Source: Sedimentisphaera salicampi
Lineage (GTDB): Bacteria > Planctomycetota > Phycisphaerae > Sedimentisphaerales > Sedimentisphaeraceae
NCBI RefSeq assembly: GCF_002117005.1
Contig: NZ_CP021023.1
Span: forward strand, 868,001-932,000
Reading direction: 5' to 3'
Length of the DNA stretch: 64,000 nucleotides
Numbering within the stretch: the stretch's first letter is position 1; each line of letters starts with the position of its first letter. Below are positions 36,626 to 63,963 of the stretch, piece after piece. The notes under the pieces are model-generated. The model was not told the origin of the DNA, searched no databases, and worked only from the letters and a program-made list of their open reading frames with translations. The position numbers and the translations under genes were made by a program.

Positions 36626-36702
36626 TAAAACTTATTACTTACAACTTACAACTTAAAACCTACAACTTAAAACTTAAAACTTATCACTTTTAACTTTTAA
36701 CT
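36626..36702. repeat. Degenerate AACTTA/AACTTAAA tandem repeat, site 1
   Basis: About ten tandem units such as AACTTACAACTTAAAACTT run into the stop codon of the epimerase gene at 36697. The same motif, in opposite orientation, occurs at 58877-58940 and 63925-63963. The rest of 36469-36625 shows no gene. Confidence 0.75.
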
Positions 36703-37617
36703 CTGAACTTCCCTAAAATACTCAATCGTTTGGGCAAGCCCTGTATCGAAATCGGATTTCGGCTCAAATCCCGCTGCTTTGAGCTTATCGATCAAGGCCA
36801 TACTGTGCCGCACGTCGCCCGGGCGCTCTTCGGCATAGCGAATCTCTGAGCTGGAGCCTGTGAGACTGATTATCCTTGAGGCGAGGTCGTTTATTGTCGT
36901 TTTACCGCCGTATGCCACATTGTACACGCCGACAGGTGCATCGGATTCTGCGAAGAACGCATTCGCCGCTGCAACATCCTGCACGAAGACGAAATCACGG
37001 GTCTGCTCGCCGTCGCCGAAGATTGTGATCGGCTCGTTGCGGAGGGCTTTGTGGATGAAGATCGGCACGGCCGCGGCGTATTGGCTCTTCGGATCCTGCC
37101 GCGGGCCGAATACGTTGAAGTAGCGAAGGCAGGCTGTGTTGACCAGCCCCTCGGAGCTGAACATATTGCAGTAGTATTCGCCGTCGAGCTTGGTGATGGC
37201 GTATGGGCTTTTCGGCTCGGGAAGCATTGTTTCAAGCTTCGGGACGGTTGGGTTGTCGCCGTAGATTGCGGCGGATGTGCTGAAGCAGAGCCGCTTTACG
37301 CCGGCCTCGCTCGCCTCGCTAAGCACGTTCAGCAGCCCCTGCACGTTCGTTTCTACGCATTCCTGCGGCTTGTGCATCGATTCGGGTACGCTGATCATTG
37401 CGGCCAGATGGAACACGTAATCGCAGCCGCGAACGGCCTCGCGAACCGCCTTGCGGTCGGTGATTGACCCGCGGATTAAGCGTGCGCCCGTGCCCGTGAG
37501 ATTCTCCTCGAAGCCAGAAAGCAGATTATCCAAAACTACAACCTCCGCCCTGCCGCTGTAATGCCGAGCGATGTGCGAACCTATAAACCCCGCCCCGCCA
37601 GTAATGAGAATTTTCAT
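36697..37617 (-). CDS. NAD-dependent sugar-nucleotide epimerase (UDP-hexose/HexNAc 4-epimerase type)
   Basis: The 306-residue SDR enzyme has the NAD-binding [14 protein letters not shown] motif at 7-20, a catalytic YAITK triad segment (SPYAITKLDGEYY), and FNVFGPRQDPKSQYAAAVPI substrate-binding residues, as in GalE/WbpP/Gne proteins. It would interconvert UDP-Glc(NAc) and UDP-Gal(NAc). It lies 5 bases downstream of a WbuB-like transferase. A GT gene plus epimerase after the three UDP-FucNAc genes recalls the wbjBCDEF order in Pseudomonas aeruginosa O11 (from memory). Its DNA is clearly richer in G+C than the transferase gene upstream. Confidence 0.88.
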   Translation of the reverse strand: MKILITGGAGFIGSHIARHYSGRAEVVVLDNLLSGFEENLTGTGARLIRGSITDRKAVREAVRGCDYVFHLAAMISVPESMHKPQECVETNVQGLLNVLSEASEAGVKRLCFSTSAAIYGDNPTVPKLETMLPEPKSPYAITKLDGEYYCNMFSSEGLVNTACLRYFNVFGPRQDPKSQYAAAVPIFIHKALRNEPITIFGDGEQTRDFVFVQDVAAANAFFAESDAPVGVYNVAYGGKTTINDLASRIISLTGSSSEIRYAEERPGDVRHSMALIDKLKAAGFEPKSDFDTGLAQTIEYFREVQS

Positions 37618-55508: not shown

Positions 55509-56376
55509 CAGCCATCTCCTTAATTTTCAATAGAACCTCTTCCAATGCATCCGCCCAGTGAATCGGTTCTATTCCTAAATCCTTATAAAGTGATGTTTTG
55601 TCCATCACTGAATACATCGGACGCTCAGCAGGCGTTGGATAATCTGCCGTTGTTATCGGAAGCAGCCTAATCTTATCCTCCAAAAGGCCAATTCTGACGG
55701 CCTTTATCATTATTTCATGTGCAAAGTCATACCAGCTTGCTGCCCCTGAATCTGAACAATGATATACGCCGGTTAGGTTATCCCTCTCCGTAAACTCCCA
55801 CACCGCCTTTGCCAAGGTATGCGATGAAGTCGGCGTGCCTATTTGGTCTGCAACTATTGAAAGCTCATCACGCTCAGTCATCAGGCGAAGCATAGTTTTA
55901 ACAAAATTACTGCCATTTGGAGAGTAAAGCCAGGATGTTCTTATAATGATATAATTATCTATTGCCTCGGCAAGAGCTTTTTCCCCTGCCAGCTTTGTTC
56001 TACCATATGCTGTTTGAGGGTTGGAAGAATCTGAAGTAAGGTAAGGCTTGCAGGATCGGCCGTCAAAAACATAATCTGTTGATATATGGATTACCCTAGC
56101 TCCAATTCCCTTGGAAGCAAGGGCTAAATTCGCAACACCTTCACAGTTGACCTTAAAAGCAATTCCTTCCTCCTGCTCCGCTCTATCAACTGCTGTGTAT
56201 GCAGAGGCATTTATTACAACTTCAGGATTGAAATCATGAAGAGTTGTATTAACAAGCTCTTTCTGAGAAATATCAAGCTCTTCTATATCCACTGCTTTAA
56301 GCTTTATATTTTCTGGGGCACAATTCTGCAGCTCAGTTCCTAACTGGCCTTTTGCGCCTACAATTAAAACTTTCAT
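55498..56376 (-). CDS. rfbD: dTDP-4-dehydrorhamnose reductase
   Basis: The 292-residue SDR enzyme makes dTDP-L-rhamnose, the last step of the pathway. Motifs: [72 protein letters not shown] (catalytic Tyr/Lys) and [17 protein letters not shown]. It overlaps rfbA by 4 bases (ATGA). Confidence 0.97.
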
Positions 56377-57242
56377 TTCACGAGCCCTTTAAGATAATCT
56401 GCATAAGAACTTTTCCCATAGGAGTATATTATTTCGTTTATGTCTTCTTGAGAGATCCAGTTATTGATTAATGCTATTTCTTCAGGACAGGCAATTTTCA
56501 AACCTGTACGATGCTCTATTGTAGAAACAAAATTGCCGGCTTCAATAAGAGATTCATGAGTACCCGTATCCAGCCAGGCAGCACCGCGGGAAAGCAGTTC
56601 AACTCTTAAAGATTTATTTTTAAGGTAAACACAATTGACGTCAGTTATTTCAAGCTCCCCCCTGTCAGAGGGTTTGATTGTTTTTGCAATATCAACAACA
56701 TCATTGTCATAAAAATATAAGCCTGTTACAGCATAATTGGATTTAGGATGTGTGGGCTTTTCTTCAATACTCAAAGCAACATTTCTCCCATCAAACTCAA
56801 CAACACCATATCTGCTAGGCTCTTGAACCCTATATGCAAAAACAATTGCTCCTTTATCTTGGGCTGAAACCAACTGCAATCTTTTTGAGAGTCCATAGCC
56901 GTAAAATATATTATCACCAAGGATCAATGTACAATTATTATCACCTACAAAATCCTCGCCGATGATGAAAGCCTGTGCGAGGCCGTCGGGGCTTGGCTGT
57001 ACGGCGTATTCGAGGCTGATGCCCCATTGGCTGCCATCTCCAAGGAGCTCGCGGAATCTGGGCGTTTCCTCAGGCGTGGAGATGATGAGGATCTCACGGA
57101 TGCCGGCAAGCATCAGGGTTGTGAGCGGGTAGTATATCATCGGCTTATCGTAAACAGGCAATAGCTGCTTACTGACAACCTTTGTTACAGGGTGAAGCCT
57201 TGTTCCCGCCCCGCCGGCAAGTATTATTCCTTTTCTTGGCAT
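56373..57242 (-). CDS. rfbA: Glucose-1-phosphate thymidylyltransferase
   Basis: The 289-residue nucleotidyltransferase makes dTDP-glucose, the first step of the rhamnose pathway. [20 protein letters not shown] is followed by [20 protein letters not shown], then [17 protein letters not shown] and [20 protein letters not shown]. The 5' quarter (about 56950-57240) is near 60% G+C in places, whereas the 3' part falls to roughly a third, suggesting a recombination junction within the gene. It is separated from rfbB by the GxxExxY unit. Confidence 0.96.
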
Positions 57243-57276
57243 TTTAACTAAACCACTATTCTAAACTTTTTTTTCT

Positions 57277-57296
57277 AACCGCTAATTTTCACTAAT
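57277..57296. repeat. Left arm of the inverted repeat around the GxxExxY gene
   Basis: AACCGCTAATTTTCACTAAT here matches the reverse complement of 57805-57824 (AACCGCTAATTGACACTAAT) at 18 of 20 positions. Confidence 0.75.
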
Positions 57297-57362
57297 ATCC
57301 ACTAAAAATAAAGATTTAGATCAGTATTTTTATTTTTAATTGCTGATTTTCTTTTTTCAAAA

Positions 57363-57734
57363 TCAGCGGCTCACTATAAATCGTTTCCACTCCAGCTTAT
57401 TTTTGTTGCCCCAATTTATCAAATAGCCGACATTTTTGTCTGTGGCTTTAAGATAATTAAAAATTTGAGCCTCTTCAACTTTTGTTAAACCCTCTATTGC
57501 TTTGAGCTCAACAACTATTCCACCTGAAACATAAAGATCAGGCCGATAATATTTATTTAATGTTACGCTCTTATAGTTAATATGCAAAATTGGTTGGCTC
57601 TGAAACTCAATACATCTGTACTGAAGTTCAATTTCCAAGGCTTCCTGATAGACTTCTTCGAGAAATCCATAGCCAAGGGTATTATAAACTTCAAAAGCAG
57701 CAGATATTAAATCATAACCTTCCTGTTTATACAT
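57363..57734 (-). CDS. GxxExxY protein
   Basis: I chose the ATG at 57734 (123 residues), preceded by AAAAGG; a TTG at 57752 would add six residues. The defining motif is LGYGFLEEVYQEALEIEL. A nuclease-like core follows, with YRPDLYVSGGIVVELKAIEG (conserved D and E-x-K) and AQIFNYLKATDKNVGYLINW. The GxxExxY family is widespread in environmental bacteria; the D...ExK pattern recalls PD-(D/E)xK nucleases, but its role is unknown. It interrupts the rfbB-rfbA order and lies between 20-bp inverted repeats, which suggests it arrived as a small mobile unit. Confidence 0.88.
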   Translation of the reverse strand: MYKQEGYDLISAAFEVYNTLGYGFLEEVYQEALEIELQYRCIEFQSQPILHINYKSVTLNKYYRPDLYVSGGIVVELKAIEGLTKVEEAQIFNYLKATDKNVGYLINWGNKNKLEWKRFIVSR

Positions 57735-57804
57735 TTTTTTGCCTTTTTTCAATCCTTATCCAAATATTAATTAACCACTAATCTTCTCTATGAATAAGTG
57801 TTTG

Positions 57805-57824
57805 ATTAGTGTCAATTAGCGGTT
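57805..57824. repeat. Right arm of the inverted repeat around the GxxExxY gene
   Basis: ATTAGTGTCAATTAGCGGTT is the partner of 57277-57296. It ends 1 base before the rfbB stop codon (57826-57828), and an extra CACTAATC/GATTAGTG pair (57776-57783 and 57804-57811) can form a hairpin beside it. Confidence 0.75.
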
Positions 57825-57825
57825 T

Positions 57826-58869
57826 TTATTCCCCCAGTCTTTCTCCTGCATATTTGGAATCTCTGATCGGCTGCCACCACCACTGGTTATCGATATACCA
57901 CTGTATTGTTTTTCTGATGCCGGTTTCGAAGCTTTCCTTGGGCTGCCAGCCCAGCTCGCTCTGTATTTTGCCCGCATCGATTGCGTATCGTTTATCGTGG
58001 CCCGGGCGGTCTTTAACGAATTTTATAAGCTCACGTCTTGGTTTATCTGCCGGCCTTATCTCATCAATGAGATCGCAGATTGTCTGCACTACCTCGAGGT
58101 TTGTTTTTTCGTTGTGCCCTCCGATATTGTAGGATTCTCCCGGCCTGCCCTCAAGAAGCACCTTCGCAAGAGCCTCAGCATGGTCTTCCACGTAAAGCCA
58201 GTCCCGAATATTATCACCCTTGCCGTAAACAGGGAGGGGCTTGCCCTCAAGTGCGTTCAAAATTATAAGCGGGATAAGCTTTTCCGGGAACTGATATGGG
58301 CCGTAATTGTTGGAGCAGTTTGTGAGCACTATCGGAAGCTGATAAGTATGATGCCAAGCTTTAACCAGATGATCTGAGCTGGCCTTGCTGGCTGAATAAG
58401 GAGAGCGAGGGTCGTAAGAAGTTTCTTCTTTGAAAAACCCTTCTCTGCCAAGGCTGCCGTAAACCTCATCTGTTGAGATATGATGAAAACGGAAACGACT
58501 CTTAGCATCGGGCTGGAGCTGCTCAAAGTACTTTTTGGATATATCGAGCAGGTTGTATGTGCCAATTATATTTGTTTCAATGAAATCTGCCGGTCCGTCT
58601 ATTGAGCGGTCAACGTGAGACTCGGCAGCTAAATGCATAACAGCATCAGGCTTGAAAGAGCTGAAAAGCTCCTGCACGGCCGGCTTATCACATATATCAG
58701 CCTGAGCAAAGCTATAGCGATCCGAACCCTCAACCTCCTTGAGCGAGGAAAGATTACCCGCGTAAGTGAGCTTGTCGATATTGAGCACGCTATGGTCGGC
58801 GTTTTTTATAATATGTCTTATTACGGCCGAGCCTATAAAGCCCGCACCACCTGTTACTATTATGTTCAT
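57826..58869 (-). CDS. rfbB: dTDP-glucose 4,6-dehydratase
   Basis: The 347-residue SDR enzyme makes dTDP-4-keto-6-deoxyglucose. Motifs: [72 protein letters not shown] (catalytic Tyr/Lys), [20 protein letters not shown] and [13 protein letters not shown]. It is normally adjacent to rfbA; here 583 bases with the GxxExxY unit intervene. AAGTT-type repeats lie directly upstream of its start. Confidence 0.97.
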
Positions 58870-58876
58870 TTATATT

Positions 58877-58940
58877 AGTTTTAAGTTGTAAGTTGTAAGT
58901 TGTAAGTTTTATGTTTTATGTTTTAGGTAATATGTTTTAT
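58877..58940. repeat. Degenerate AAGTTGTAAGTTTT tandem repeat, site 2
   Basis: AGTTTTAAGTTGTAAGTTGT and similar units, then TATGTTTTATG units, lie between the rfbB start and the dehydrogenase remnant. It is the same motif as at 36626-36702 (inverted) and 63925-63963. Confidence 0.75.
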
Positions 58941-59114
58941 GCCTTCCAAACCTTTTTCTTTGCGGATTTGCATTTGTCGCAGGAGTTTCTGGTATCGATT
59001 ACGAGCTGGGCGTTATCGGTTATCATCTGGTAGTCGTAGTCTGAGTGGTCGGTGGCGATAAGCACAGCATCGAAGCCAGCGAGCATTTTCGGCGTTATTT
59101 TCCTGCTCTTCATT
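58935..59114. repeat. 180-bp direct repeat, copy 1 (pairs with 61616-61795)
   Basis: By eye it differs from copy 2 at about six positions. It contains the last 58 codons of the nucleotide-sugar dehydrogenase gene. Confidence 0.9.
58937..59113 (-). pseudogene. C-terminal remnant of the nucleotide-sugar dehydrogenase gene
   Basis: A 58-codon frame with its own ATG at 59113 reads KSRKITPKMLAGFDAVLIAT, then DHSDYDYQMITDNAQLV and IDTRNSCDKCK, ending in KKKVWKA. This is the exact C-terminus of the intact enzyme at 61618-62919 with very few changes. It lacks NAD- and substrate-binding parts and cannot be active. The remaining bases 59115-59145 carry no gene. Confidence 0.9.
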
Positions 59115-59145
59115 AAATCCTTATTATTTTTAAGAAATATTCAAA

Positions 59146-60090
59146 CTAATCAATTACTTCATCAATGATATAACGTGGTCTTCTTTTAACTTCTATATAC
59201 ACTCTGGATAAATACTCTCCGATAATGCCAAGGCAAAGAAGCTGAACACCTCCAAATAAAACAATTGCAATAACAATAGATGCCCACCCTGCTATACTAT
59301 TGCCTGTAATTTTTACACAAAGTGCATAAAGTAAAACGCCTAAAGCTATAAAGGTTGTTAAAAAGCCTAAGGCACTAATAAATCTCAGAGGAATCGCAGA
59401 AAAAGCTACTATACCATTTAAGGCTAACTTTAACATTTTTTTCAAAGTATACTGAGAATAGCCAGCTTCTCTCTTCTTTCTGCCATAAAAAACCTTAGCA
59501 GTTTTGAACCCCATATGGGGGAAAATACCCCGCAAGAACAAGCAATTTTCATTATAACTTTTTAGTGCTTTAAGGGCTTTACTTCCCACCAATCTAAAAT
59601 CTGCATGATTAAAAATTACATTCGCACCCATCAGATTCATTAGTTTATAAAACAAAAGAGCGCTATTTCGCTTAAAGAAAGAATCTTCATTACGGGCATC
59701 CCTTATACCATAAATAATTTCAGAACCCTTATTAAATAATTCAAACATTTCATTTATCACTGAGATATCATCTTGTAGGTCAGCGTCTATTGTAACAGCA
59801 CAATCTACATCCTTTTCCAGAGCATATTCCATTCCTGTTAATATTGCAGCTTGGTGGCCAAAATTGTTAGAAAGCTTTAAACCTTTGTAAAAATTGGAAT
59901 TTTGAGTGAGAGTGTAAATTATATCCCAAGTTTTATCAAAACTCCCATCATCAACAAATAAAATAAAACTTTGTTCAGTTGCTAAACCTGAATTAATCAA
60001 ATCAATCAGCTTTTTCACTAATTTCTCCGAAGATTCATTCAGTATTTGTTCTTCATTATAACAAGGAATTACAAACGCGACCCTTTTCAT
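59146..60090 (-). CDS. Family 2 glycosyltransferase, DPM1/GtrB-like, with two C-terminal membrane segments
   Basis: The 314-residue enzyme begins VAFVIPCYNEEQILNESSEK, with SFILFVDDGSFDKTWDIIY, GHQAAILTGMEYALEKDVDC and TIDADLQDD (metal-binding D-x-D). Two membrane segments lie at about 230-290 (FISALGFLTTFIALGVLLYA; SIVIAIVLFGGVQLLCLGII) and end GEYLSRVYIEVKRRPRY. GtrB/ArnC-like members load a sugar onto undecaprenyl phosphate for a partner membrane transferase; the neighbour at 60112 is the obvious partner. Both genes lie between the two copies of the 180-bp direct repeat. Confidence 0.9.
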   Translation of the reverse strand: MKRVAFVIPCYNEEQILNESSEKLVKKLIDLINSGLATEQSFILFVDDGSFDKTWDIIYTLTQNSNFYKGLKLSNNFGHQAAILTGMEYALEKDVDCAVTIDADLQDDISVINEMFELFNKGSEIIYGIRDARNEDSFFKRNSALLFYKLMNLMGANVIFNHADFRLVGSKALKALKSYNENCLFLRGIFPHMGFKTAKVFYGRKKREAGYSQYTLKKMLKLALNGIVAFSAIPLRFISALGFLTTFIALGVLLYALCVKITGNSIAGWASIVIAIVLFGGVQLLCLGIIGEYLSRVYIEVKRRPRYIIDEVID

Positions 60091-63131: not shown

Positions 63132-63560
63132 CTATTCAGGACTATATATATCAATGCCCAGTTTCCTGCATAAATTTTCGAATATTTCAAGCTTGTTTTC
63201 TACTATTGCTTTCAAAACCTCATTTTGAATCCTCTGATACTGATGCACTGCAATATTCCTAAAACCAGACATAGCAGCGAGCTCCTGAGCCATCGGCTTA
63301 TCTATTATGCCCGAATCTGCGAGCAATTTGAAGGCTTCCGCTGAGGAATTGGGAACTCCCAGCTTCGATTTGCTTACTGTATGATTTGCCAAATCAATTG
63401 CCGCCTGACAAGCTCTTTCGAGGTTAAGCGTCATAGCGTCGAGATGGGTGAAGCTTTCGAATGATGGATCTGCTTTGTACTCCTCCTTGATTCGTTTCAG
63501 GCATCTCTGCAAAACCGCTGCCTTGCTTCGGCTGACATCATCTGGCTGAATAGGCTTCAT
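63132..63560 (-). CDS. hepT: HepT-like HEPN ribonuclease toxin
   Basis: The 142-residue DUF86/HEPN protein is helical with the RX4H active motif at Arg101-His106 in MSGFRNIAVHQYQRIQ. Tyr108 in the HQY extension is the residue that MntA modifies in characterised systems. The start overlaps the upstream mntA gene by 23 bases, the usual order of type VII HEPN-MNT pairs. HEPN toxins cleave RNA; the target here is unknown. Confidence 0.92.
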   Translation of the reverse strand: MKPIQPDDVSRSKAAVLQRCLKRIKEEYKADPSFESFTHLDAMTLNLERACQAAIDLANHTVSKSKLGVPNSSAEAFKLLADSGIIDKPMAQELAAMSGFRNIAVHQYQRIQNEVLKAIVENKLEIFENLCRKLGIDIYSPE

Positions 63561-63924
63561 AAATCTCCCTCATTTCAATACGATAGTCCTGAATCATTCC
63601 GATTAAGGTGCATTCTCTGAATTCTGCGGCTGTTTCGTCTCGGCAGAAGAAGCGGCGGCCTGTTTGGAGAACCTGCGAGGCATAGATCAAATCAGAGCTG
63701 GAGAGAACGCCAAGATCCACCGGCCGAGGGCTGATTAGGTTCAGCTCGCCTGCGAGATCGAAAAGCTGCATGCCGGAAATCTTTTGGCCCGGCTGCGGAA
63801 GAAGAGCTATGTCTATATCGCTGGACGCACGCAGCTCCCCCCTTGCAGCACTGCCCAGAAGGTATGCCGCTAAAACAGCCTCGCAAGAGGCAAGACGATC
63901 TTTTATTGGCTCAAGATTTAGCAT
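63538..63924 (-). CDS. mntA: MntA-like minimal nucleotidyltransferase antitoxin
   Basis: The 128-residue protein has the GSx10DxD nucleotidyltransferase motif at 24-38 (LLGSAARGELRASSDIDIAL) and a third acid at Asp73 (RPVDLGVLSS), so the catalytic triad is complete. In known pairs MntA transfers AMP units to the HepT tyrosine and neutralises it. AAGTT-type repeats abut the start codon at 63924, leaving little room for a usual ribosome site. Confidence 0.92.
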   Translation of the reverse strand: MLNLEPIKDRLASCEAVLAAYLLGSAARGELRASSDIDIALLPQPGQKISGMQLFDLAGELNLISPRPVDLGVLSSSDLIYASQVLQTGRRFFCRDETAAEFRECTLIGMIQDYRIEMREIYEAYSAR

Positions 63925-63963
63925 AGTTTTAAGTTATAAGTTTTAAGTTTTAAGTTATAAGCT
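63925..63963. repeat. Degenerate AAGTT tandem repeat, site 3
   Basis: AGTTTTAAGTTATAAGTTTT-type units lie immediately upstream of the mntA start. Same orientation as site 2 and opposite to site 1. Nothing else is seen to the window end. Confidence 0.7.

Follow-up and report, generated by a model that had tools for sequence, protein, structure and literature searches.

GxxExxY genes framed by inverted three-word arrays: a candidate mobile unit in the rfb operon of Sedimentisphaera salicampi and at loci across phyla

Insertion sequences are short units composed of a single ORF and terminal inverted repeats, and Rpn / YhgA-like proteins are of the PD-(D/E)XK type. GxxExxY proteins are widespread and, to our knowledge, have no settled function. 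Published accounts describe three systems with which a GxxExxY locus can be compared. In the first, RAYT (TnpA-REP) genes occur with REP sequences or REPINs (PMC3116915; PMC8266576); RAYT is a Y1 (HUH) tyrosine transposase, REPs are palindromes found mainly as inverted doublets, and RAYTs are described as incapable of self-mobilization (PMC3116915). In the second, Rpn / YhgA-like proteins (Transposase_31, PF04754) are linked to recombination or defence (PMC5350276, PMC10327210). The third comprises the intervening sequences of 23S rRNA, which carry an S23 / four-helix-bundle protein (PF05635) and are excised by RNase III (PMC4990558).

In the open literature searched, the terms GxxExxY, PDDEXK_3, DUF3782, PF13366 and TIGR04256 were absent from titles and abstracts, TIGR04256 was not mentioned, nothing related to the word sequences described below was found, and the open heptamer/STRR literature held nothing tying such repeats to these genes. 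Here we describe a GxxExxY gene of S. salicampi together with its flanking arrays. The best explanation as a whole, to which we assign a probability of roughly 0.6, is a mobile unit whose protein would bind the words in its arms, cut, and thereby move or copy the unit.

The unit between rfbB and rfbA and its protein

The original prediction placed a GxxExxY gene between rfbB and rfbA, framed by 20-bp inverted repeats with the outer end abutting the rfbB stop codon, and each of these points was borne out in the window, the whole stretch of 64,000 nucleotides that was analysed. The features of the locus are as follows.

57277..57824, minus strand: whole unit of 548 bp, the GxxExxY gene plus two arms, between rfbB and rfbA
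57277..57306, plus strand: downstream arm (left in the window), AAC followed by CGCTAAT, CACTAAT and CACTAAA at a period of 10
57794..57824, minus strand: upstream arm (right in the window), AAC followed by CGCTAAT, CACTAAT and CACTTAT at a period of 10-11
57773..57782, plus strand: AACCACTAAT, an inner inverted copy of one word, facing the upstream arm (sequence reading)
57363..57734, minus strand: GxxExxY protein gene, 123 aa from the ATG at 57734 (ORF, Pfam/TIGRFAM, alignment, model)
57826..58869, minus strand: rfbB-like dTDP-glucose dehydratase, the upstream host gene (ORF and Pfam)
56373..57242, minus strand: rfbA-like nucleotidyl transferase, the downstream host gene (ORF and Pfam)

The inverted repeat is formed by 57277-57296 (AACCGCTAATTTTCACTAAT) and 57805-57824, which differs at two positions, giving 20 nt at 90% complementarity with 508 nt separating the arms. 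No other such pair exists in the window, where 2 matches at up to 3 mismatches compare with a shuffle mean of 0.02 and 0/100 shuffles with 2. A single base separates the outer end of the right arm from the stop codon of rfbB, and 34 bp separate the left arm from the start of rfbA. Each arm exceeds 20 bp, as a third word is present and makes a threefold array with a period of ~10 bp. Between the arms is a single ORF on the minus strand (57363-57752), which opens at a TTG at 57752, although the ATG at 57734 is the likely start. An Rfam scan of 57000-59200 gave no match. The window unit has the bounding inverted terminal repeats of an insertion sequence; it is unlike a 23S rRNA intervening sequence in that its site is not in an rRNA helix but between rfbB and rfbA, and its protein belongs to PDDEXK_3, not PF05635.

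The window ORF matches PF13366 (PDDEXK_3; E 1.2e-38, 132.5 bits, cut-off 22) and TIGR04256 (GxxExxY; E 7.4e-38, 129.5 bits, cut-off 35), scores that assign it by sequence to the GxxExxY / PDDEXK_3 family. Among 75 aligned members, G23, E26, D66, K78 and N107 show no variation and E76, Q90, Y94 and R118 almost none, in agreement with the nuclease-like D...ExK pattern that had been noticed in the protein. An alignment-based model (pLDDT 96.1), which replaced a single-sequence model of pLDDT 37, has as its nearest solved folds SSO0001 (4ic1, which we take to be a Cas4; Foldseek E 2e-4; superposition at Z 8.9 and 4.8 A over 102 residues) and lambda exonuclease (1avq, 3sm4, 6m9k; ~1e-3), with E values ranging from 2e-4 to 7e-3. 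The remaining structural rows, at Z 6-8, may reflect the common fold only, and sequence search gave no meaningful solved relatives. The protein therefore models as a Cas4/lambda-exonuclease-like PD-(D/E)XK nuclease fold with predicted activity, sharing with these enzymes the motif E..D..ExK..QxxxY. Unlike them, it has no iron-sulphur or helicase partner in view, and at ~17% identity function is not transferable. A search for transposase or recombinase domains (DDE, HUH, serine, tyrosine) found none, PDDEXK_3 being the only Pfam match at E <= 0.001; PADLOC gave no match at E <= 0.01, an absence that excludes nothing, and PHROGs gave no match.

Three-word arms across GxxExxY loci and their co-variation with the protein

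Loci were gathered from 40 relatives, 149 genomes of the phylum and named genomes in many phyla, with Methanophagales and Methanosarcinales archaea among them. Genes were re-found with a home-made profile, giving 213 distinct loci, 208 of them with sufficient flank; six of 40 later-fetched loci, which had no usable ORF or were off centre, were taken up through this profile search instead. In a motif-free test, an inverted repeat with a score of at least 14 is common to the two flanks, upstream and downstream, at 130/208 loci, compared with 0.29% of own-flank shuffles and 5.8% of pairings of flanks from different loci, the latter excess arising because the arm grammar is shared. The word model (PWM), C-R-C-N-R-A-T/G three times at 8-12 bp apart, was built with the same loci in view, so that the motif-free test is the independent one. 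By this model, a word array is found on at least one side at 158/209 GxxExxY loci and inverted arrays on both sides at 94/209, while 51/209 have no detectable word triple on either side. For 270 neighbouring genes (from 89 loci) the corresponding counts are 2/270 with inverted arrays on both sides and 38/270 with an array on either side in any orientation; any array at all was found in 17/275 distal windows, and the outer-in orientation of arrays was counted at 125/116 vs 22/41.

Inverted three-word arms are thus a class-wide feature of GxxExxY loci, across phyla. The arms are composed of three 7-bp words (C-R-C-N-R-A-T/G) spaced 8-11 bp, usually with AAC before the first word, and show a periodicity of 9-10 bp (spacings of 8, 9 and 10 account for 61, 252 and 137 of 456). 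The median length of the 94 units with both arms is 485 bp. At a Treponema locus (L303) the arms were not clear by eye. Chance was rejected by the window shuffles, the motif-free flank test and the word model applied to neighbouring genes. That an ordinary operon gene simply lies near common intergenic repeats is scarcely credible: such repeats are indeed very common in the source genome (G000), but the counts for neighbouring genes given above stand far from those for GxxExxY loci, and whole units are missing from relatives.

Several individual loci show further features. In one relative (G004:C1, L059) a GxxExxY unit is positioned between hsdS-like and hsdM-like genes, with several more CTAAT arrays downstream, and by eye the stop of the upstream gene and the start codon of the unit apparently fall inside the array. 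A Marinilabilia salmonicolor contig (L156) carries three GxxExxY genes within 12 kb, and two of these share 88% identity across 606 bp with their flanks included, which points to recent local duplication. The near-identical units L047 and L053 (G021 / G033) differ on their downstream sides by ~124 bp that include array words, a gain or loss of word modules beside the unit.

Arm similarity rises with protein identity (Mantel rho 0.294, 130 loci; 0/499 permutations as high) and the correlation persists for pairs below 60% identity (rho 0.266). Neutral 30-mers taken 670-700 bp upstream of the same genes gave a correlation of 0.004 (127 loci), by which word sharing merely from recent unit copies was rejected. 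Words were sorted into classes with last base T, with last base G, or of ACAGGAT type. On a tree of 111 proteins, word class requires 7 changes against a shuffled mean of 36.1 (0/200 as low), the G class alone 3 against 27.9, and the spacing pattern 23 against 36.5 (lowest shuffle 31). Class changes do occur: the window protein, whose word is of the T class, groups with four G-word proteins in a small clade. GC drift was provisionally rejected as the origin of the T and G classes, whose GC means are 0.50 and 0.57 with widely overlapping ranges. The two arms of a unit share their spacing pattern in 76/89 cases, compared with 27% between loci, and agree at the class-defining word positions 5 and 7 in 96% and 93%, compared with 66% and 53% between loci. 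Agreement between the arms of a locus is 0.90 for words and 0.62 for spacers, the latter falling to 0.41 between loci. Residues that separate the T and G classes, kinship being ignored, include F24, N93, A97, G109, K113 and W116 (window numbering).

A single protein reading both arms would be the simplest account of this co-variation, which could alternatively reflect in part co-descent of the whole unit under constraint, and we consider it probable that the protein recognises its own arms. If the arms instead acted in RNA, a stem around the ORF would protect or process the operon mRNA (cf. RNase III) or autoregulate the gene. Such a role would suit inverted arms that enclose an ORF and lie behind stop codons within operons, and spacers that agree more within a locus than between loci; it also has a parallel in the 23S intervening sequences, which encode an S23 protein and which in Coxiella are removed by RNase III (PMC4990558). 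Pairing, however, needs matching arms and not a threefold word at a fixed period, the words agree better than the spacers, word class tracks the protein tree, and partnerless single arms are dispersed in intergenic DNA, all of which make an RNA role quite improbable.

A control set of 68 loci with TIGR02436 / PF05635 four-helix-bundle genes was taken from the same genomes. These genes are also bounded by inverted arrays, at 52/68 loci with a score of at least 12 and 47/68 with at least 14 (shuffle controls 0.9% and 0, respectively), with a period of 7 or 8 in 45/47, compared with 9-10 for GxxExxY, and the GxxExxY word model finds both arms at 1/68. Two unrelated small proteins share a unit design, with different arrays. 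The family-specific periods speak for a specific link between protein and array, and the existence of units with a non-nuclease four-helix-bundle protein means that a nuclease need not be assumed from arms and a small ORF alone. An example is L305:3459-4016 / L353 (G021), with array words such as CAGTTATCAGTCATCAGTT; to us the 7-8-bp arrays look like the heptamer repeats of cyanobacteria. The window itself holds heptamer arrays (TAAAACT / AGTTTTA) at 36626-36710, 58877-58939 and 63925-63961, the last directly upstream of a nucleotidyltransferase-HepT pair (63132-63924), and no four-helix-bundle gene was noticed next to them.

Filled and empty junctions and dispersed arrays

The junction between leuC and leuD, names that we assign from aconitase-type domains and gene order, was compared in four congeneric genomes. 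In G033 the GxxExxY unit begins in the leuC stop codon (CTGTAACCACAG...) and ends with ...AATCTGCGGTT before leuD, and in G017 and G013 the two genes are separated by plain spacers with neither gene nor arms. The fourth genome, G021, holds a different unit, a four-helix-bundle gene between AAACTCTAAATCC arrays, placing the second family once at the very junction where a relative has a GxxExxY unit. At a second junction, between a glucose/sorbosone-dehydrogenase-like gene and an SDR gene, G158 holds ~0.53 kb with the unit, and in G142, G086, G124 and G173 the genes touch or overlap with no unit; in G061 17 bp lie between the matches (from coordinates only), and the sixth genome searched, G106, had no match on both sides. 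In a weaker comparison, of L082 with G030, the unit is missing in a diverged spacer. Since relatives lack gene and arms together at the same junction, the GxxExxY gene with its arms is an insertion unit, as shown by family members other than that at the rfb site. For the rfb site, an empty rfbB-rfbA junction was sought in relatives and was not found: the junction in this order is absent at the rfbA loci of eight relatives, viewed with ~1.5 kb to either side. Because the spacers have diverged between species, the empty junctions compared reveal neither a target-site duplication nor an exact cut point.

The original prediction of a non-autonomous mobile element is upheld with respect to the insertion unit, as units of the same architecture are absent at relatives' junctions; the term non-autonomous is unsupported, because the unit has its own intact nuclease ORF and nothing places the enzyme elsewhere. 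A mobile unit with these ends is very probable. Phage carriage was rejected: no match was found among 50,697 phage records, and a scan of viral contigs gave no relative. Plasmids gave 8 records, all below 60% identity.

The position of the window unit directly behind rfbB is an instance of a common tendency: 88/123 upstream arms have a same-strand ORF of at least 150 residues ending within 30 bp of the outer edge, compared with 6% of random positions. The same layout is present in Bacteroides finegoldii, behind radA (L302). Additionally, the GxxExxY start codon is often at or just past the third word, and the stop codon often at or in the downstream arm. The stop-codon position may represent target choice or the survival of harmless insertions. 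In a homing-type element the nuclease would cut the empty junction and repair would copy the unit in, leaving the arms as a by-product or protective tag. Empty and filled junctions in close relatives, found here for other units of the family, would be expected of such an element, as would the PD-(D/E)XK fold and insertion behind stop codons. The junction sequence nevertheless varies from unit to unit, and conservation lies in the arms and not in the target, where the stop codon was the sole motif compared, so that we regard homing as rather improbable.

The source genome (3.19 Mb, single contig) contains four full GxxExxY genes and one fragment. Exact matches to the word pair number 98 in this genome vs 1 for the reversed control, and at up to 2 mismatches 66+90 vs 16+18; as with RAYT and REP, the repeat that flanks the gene is dispersed in the same genome, and the exact motif is consequently not one-to-one with the gene. 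The three other full copies are framed by other words (CTCCGTT, ACAGGATT and CTCTGTG types) and lie partly between directly repeated modules whose ends are inverted, rather than between simple inverted arms. Among 28 solo copies that were read, 0/28 lie inside an ORF of at least 120 residues and 0/28 have an inverted partner within 800 bp. Their consensus is AGCCGCTAATCAGCACTAATTTTTCACTAATGATT, with spacers unlike those of the window unit, which is therefore not their direct source. Unpaired solo copies are unexplained by an ordinary terminal-repeat transposon.

A fixed 20-bp motif, which had been offered as the definition of the unit, was rejected as a hallmark of the family, as every lineage has its own word, nor is the motif exclusive to GxxExxY genes. 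Two findings had been named in advance as counting against the prediction, namely GxxExxY loci lacking the motif and the motif being common without the gene, and both were literally made, the latter in the genome-wide counts above. They refine rather than refute it, since the other loci keep the three-word grammar, with words that track the protein.

In a count over 40 genomes, the CTAAT pair was found 98 times in G000, 61 in G020, 18 in G001 and 10 in G004, and 0-5 times in the other 36. Genes with a CTAAT word were seen in G000, G001 and G004, and none was found in G020, a genome 85% complete. The ACAGGAT pair is frequent in genomes with such a gene (G016 45, G002 35, G000 23, G012 23, G010 14) but also in G001 (32), G024 (23) and G020 (21), and low in G030 (1); the G030 gene is of a related type, and G024 is without any GxxExxY gene. 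The link between word and gene across genomes is real in tendency but not strict, and is suggestive rather than clean.

Intergenic regions of the source genome (L007, L029, L033 and others) are mosaics of CTAAT, ACAGGATT, CTCCG, CTCTGTG, CACAGATT and GCCACTC arrays. Many CTAAT arrays directly adjoin GCCACTC arrays, and the latter are similar to the arms of this genome's own four-helix-bundle gene (L199). The decayed GxxExxY fragment (L005, G000:C1:659268-659387) has CACAGATT-type words on either side.

The main rival to a protein that moves its own unit is a cargo or defence role, in which the arms would be a mobile or self-spreading entity served in trans by host or unrelated enzymes and the GxxExxY gene would be framed cargo, for example a defence or toxic nuclease of the sort that Rpn proteins are claimed to be. 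The abundance of unpaired solo arms would follow from such an arrangement, as would the words in G020 and G024 for which no cognate gene was found, and the non-nuclease four-helix-bundle genes that are framed by arrays of another period, once at the same leuC-leuD junction. We nevertheless consider it unlikely, because both word class and spacing go with the phylogeny of the protein and the array period differs between the two protein families (9-10 vs 7-8), which cargo would not require; as a weak further point, PADLOC and PHROGs gave no match.

Comparison with known systems and proposed mechanism

By analogy, the GxxExxY unit probably functions in the manner of a RAYT/REP pair or of a minimal insertion sequence. 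The likeness to RAYT and REP (PMC3116915; PMC8266576) is that the gene is divergent and mostly present as one copy, that the repeat flanking it is scattered through intergenic DNA of the same genome, that each gene lineage has its own repeat flavour, and that co-evolution is proposed. Unlike RAYT, the enzyme is a predicted PD-(D/E)XK nuclease and not a Y1 (HUH) transposase; unlike REPs, the repeat is composed of three direct words at 8-11 bp, with solo copies that are unpaired; and unlike RAYTs as described in PMC3116915, the units are polymorphic insertions. Insertion sequences resemble the unit in being short, with one ORF, inverted ends and presence or absence at one site among relatives, and differ from it in that the unit has no known transposase domain, its ends are iterated words and no target duplication was seen. 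Because a transposase was looked for and not found, the unit belongs to neither class. Rpn / YhgA-like proteins belong to another Pfam family, and word-array ends are unreported for Rpn in the literature surveyed. The 23S intervening sequence is likewise a ~0.4-kb selfish unit with one small ORF (PMC4990558), and its PF05635 family also forms the parallel 7-8-bp-array units found here; those sequences lie in rRNA helices, unlike GxxExxY units, which lie between protein genes and encode a nuclease. None of the known kinds compared has both these ends and this enzyme. If a known enzyme acting in trans catalyses movement, the unit would be less distinct from known systems.

In the mechanism that we propose, the GxxExxY gene and its inverted arms would constitute one compact mobile unit, with the ORF filling the interior. 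The protein is predicted to bind all three words in either arm from the same side of the helix, the 8-11 bp spacing being close to one helical turn, and would then cut or nick the DNA, presumably at the arms, so that the unit is copied or moved. That the nuclease activity drives movement is a proposal to which we give slightly less than even odds. The unit would land, or survive, preferentially just behind the stop of a co-directional gene inside operons, and the solo intergenic arms would arise as by-products of this activity or depend on it, much as REP sequences relate to RAYT. In its broadest and more tentative form, the proposal is of a minimal mobile class, spanning phyla and archaea, in which a Cas4-like nuclease would read helically phased end words, drive its unit into operon stop junctions and shed solo arrays, with word code and protein co-evolving, and in which the four-helix-bundle family would run the same design and compete for junctions.

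With the gene tied to a bounded mobile unit whose end code can be read, the function of GxxExxY proteins becomes directly testable, since the flanks of most family members predict their cognate DNA. The units would offer a natural set of protein-DNA specificity pairs, and, if the proposal is true, the family would be a natural series of DNA-recognition variants and a source of the short periodic repeats that are very common in intergenic DNA. Together with the four-helix-bundle units, they would show that unrelated small proteins share one unit design and, if this is correct, would account for a large part of the hitherto orphan short periodic repeats in environmental genomes.
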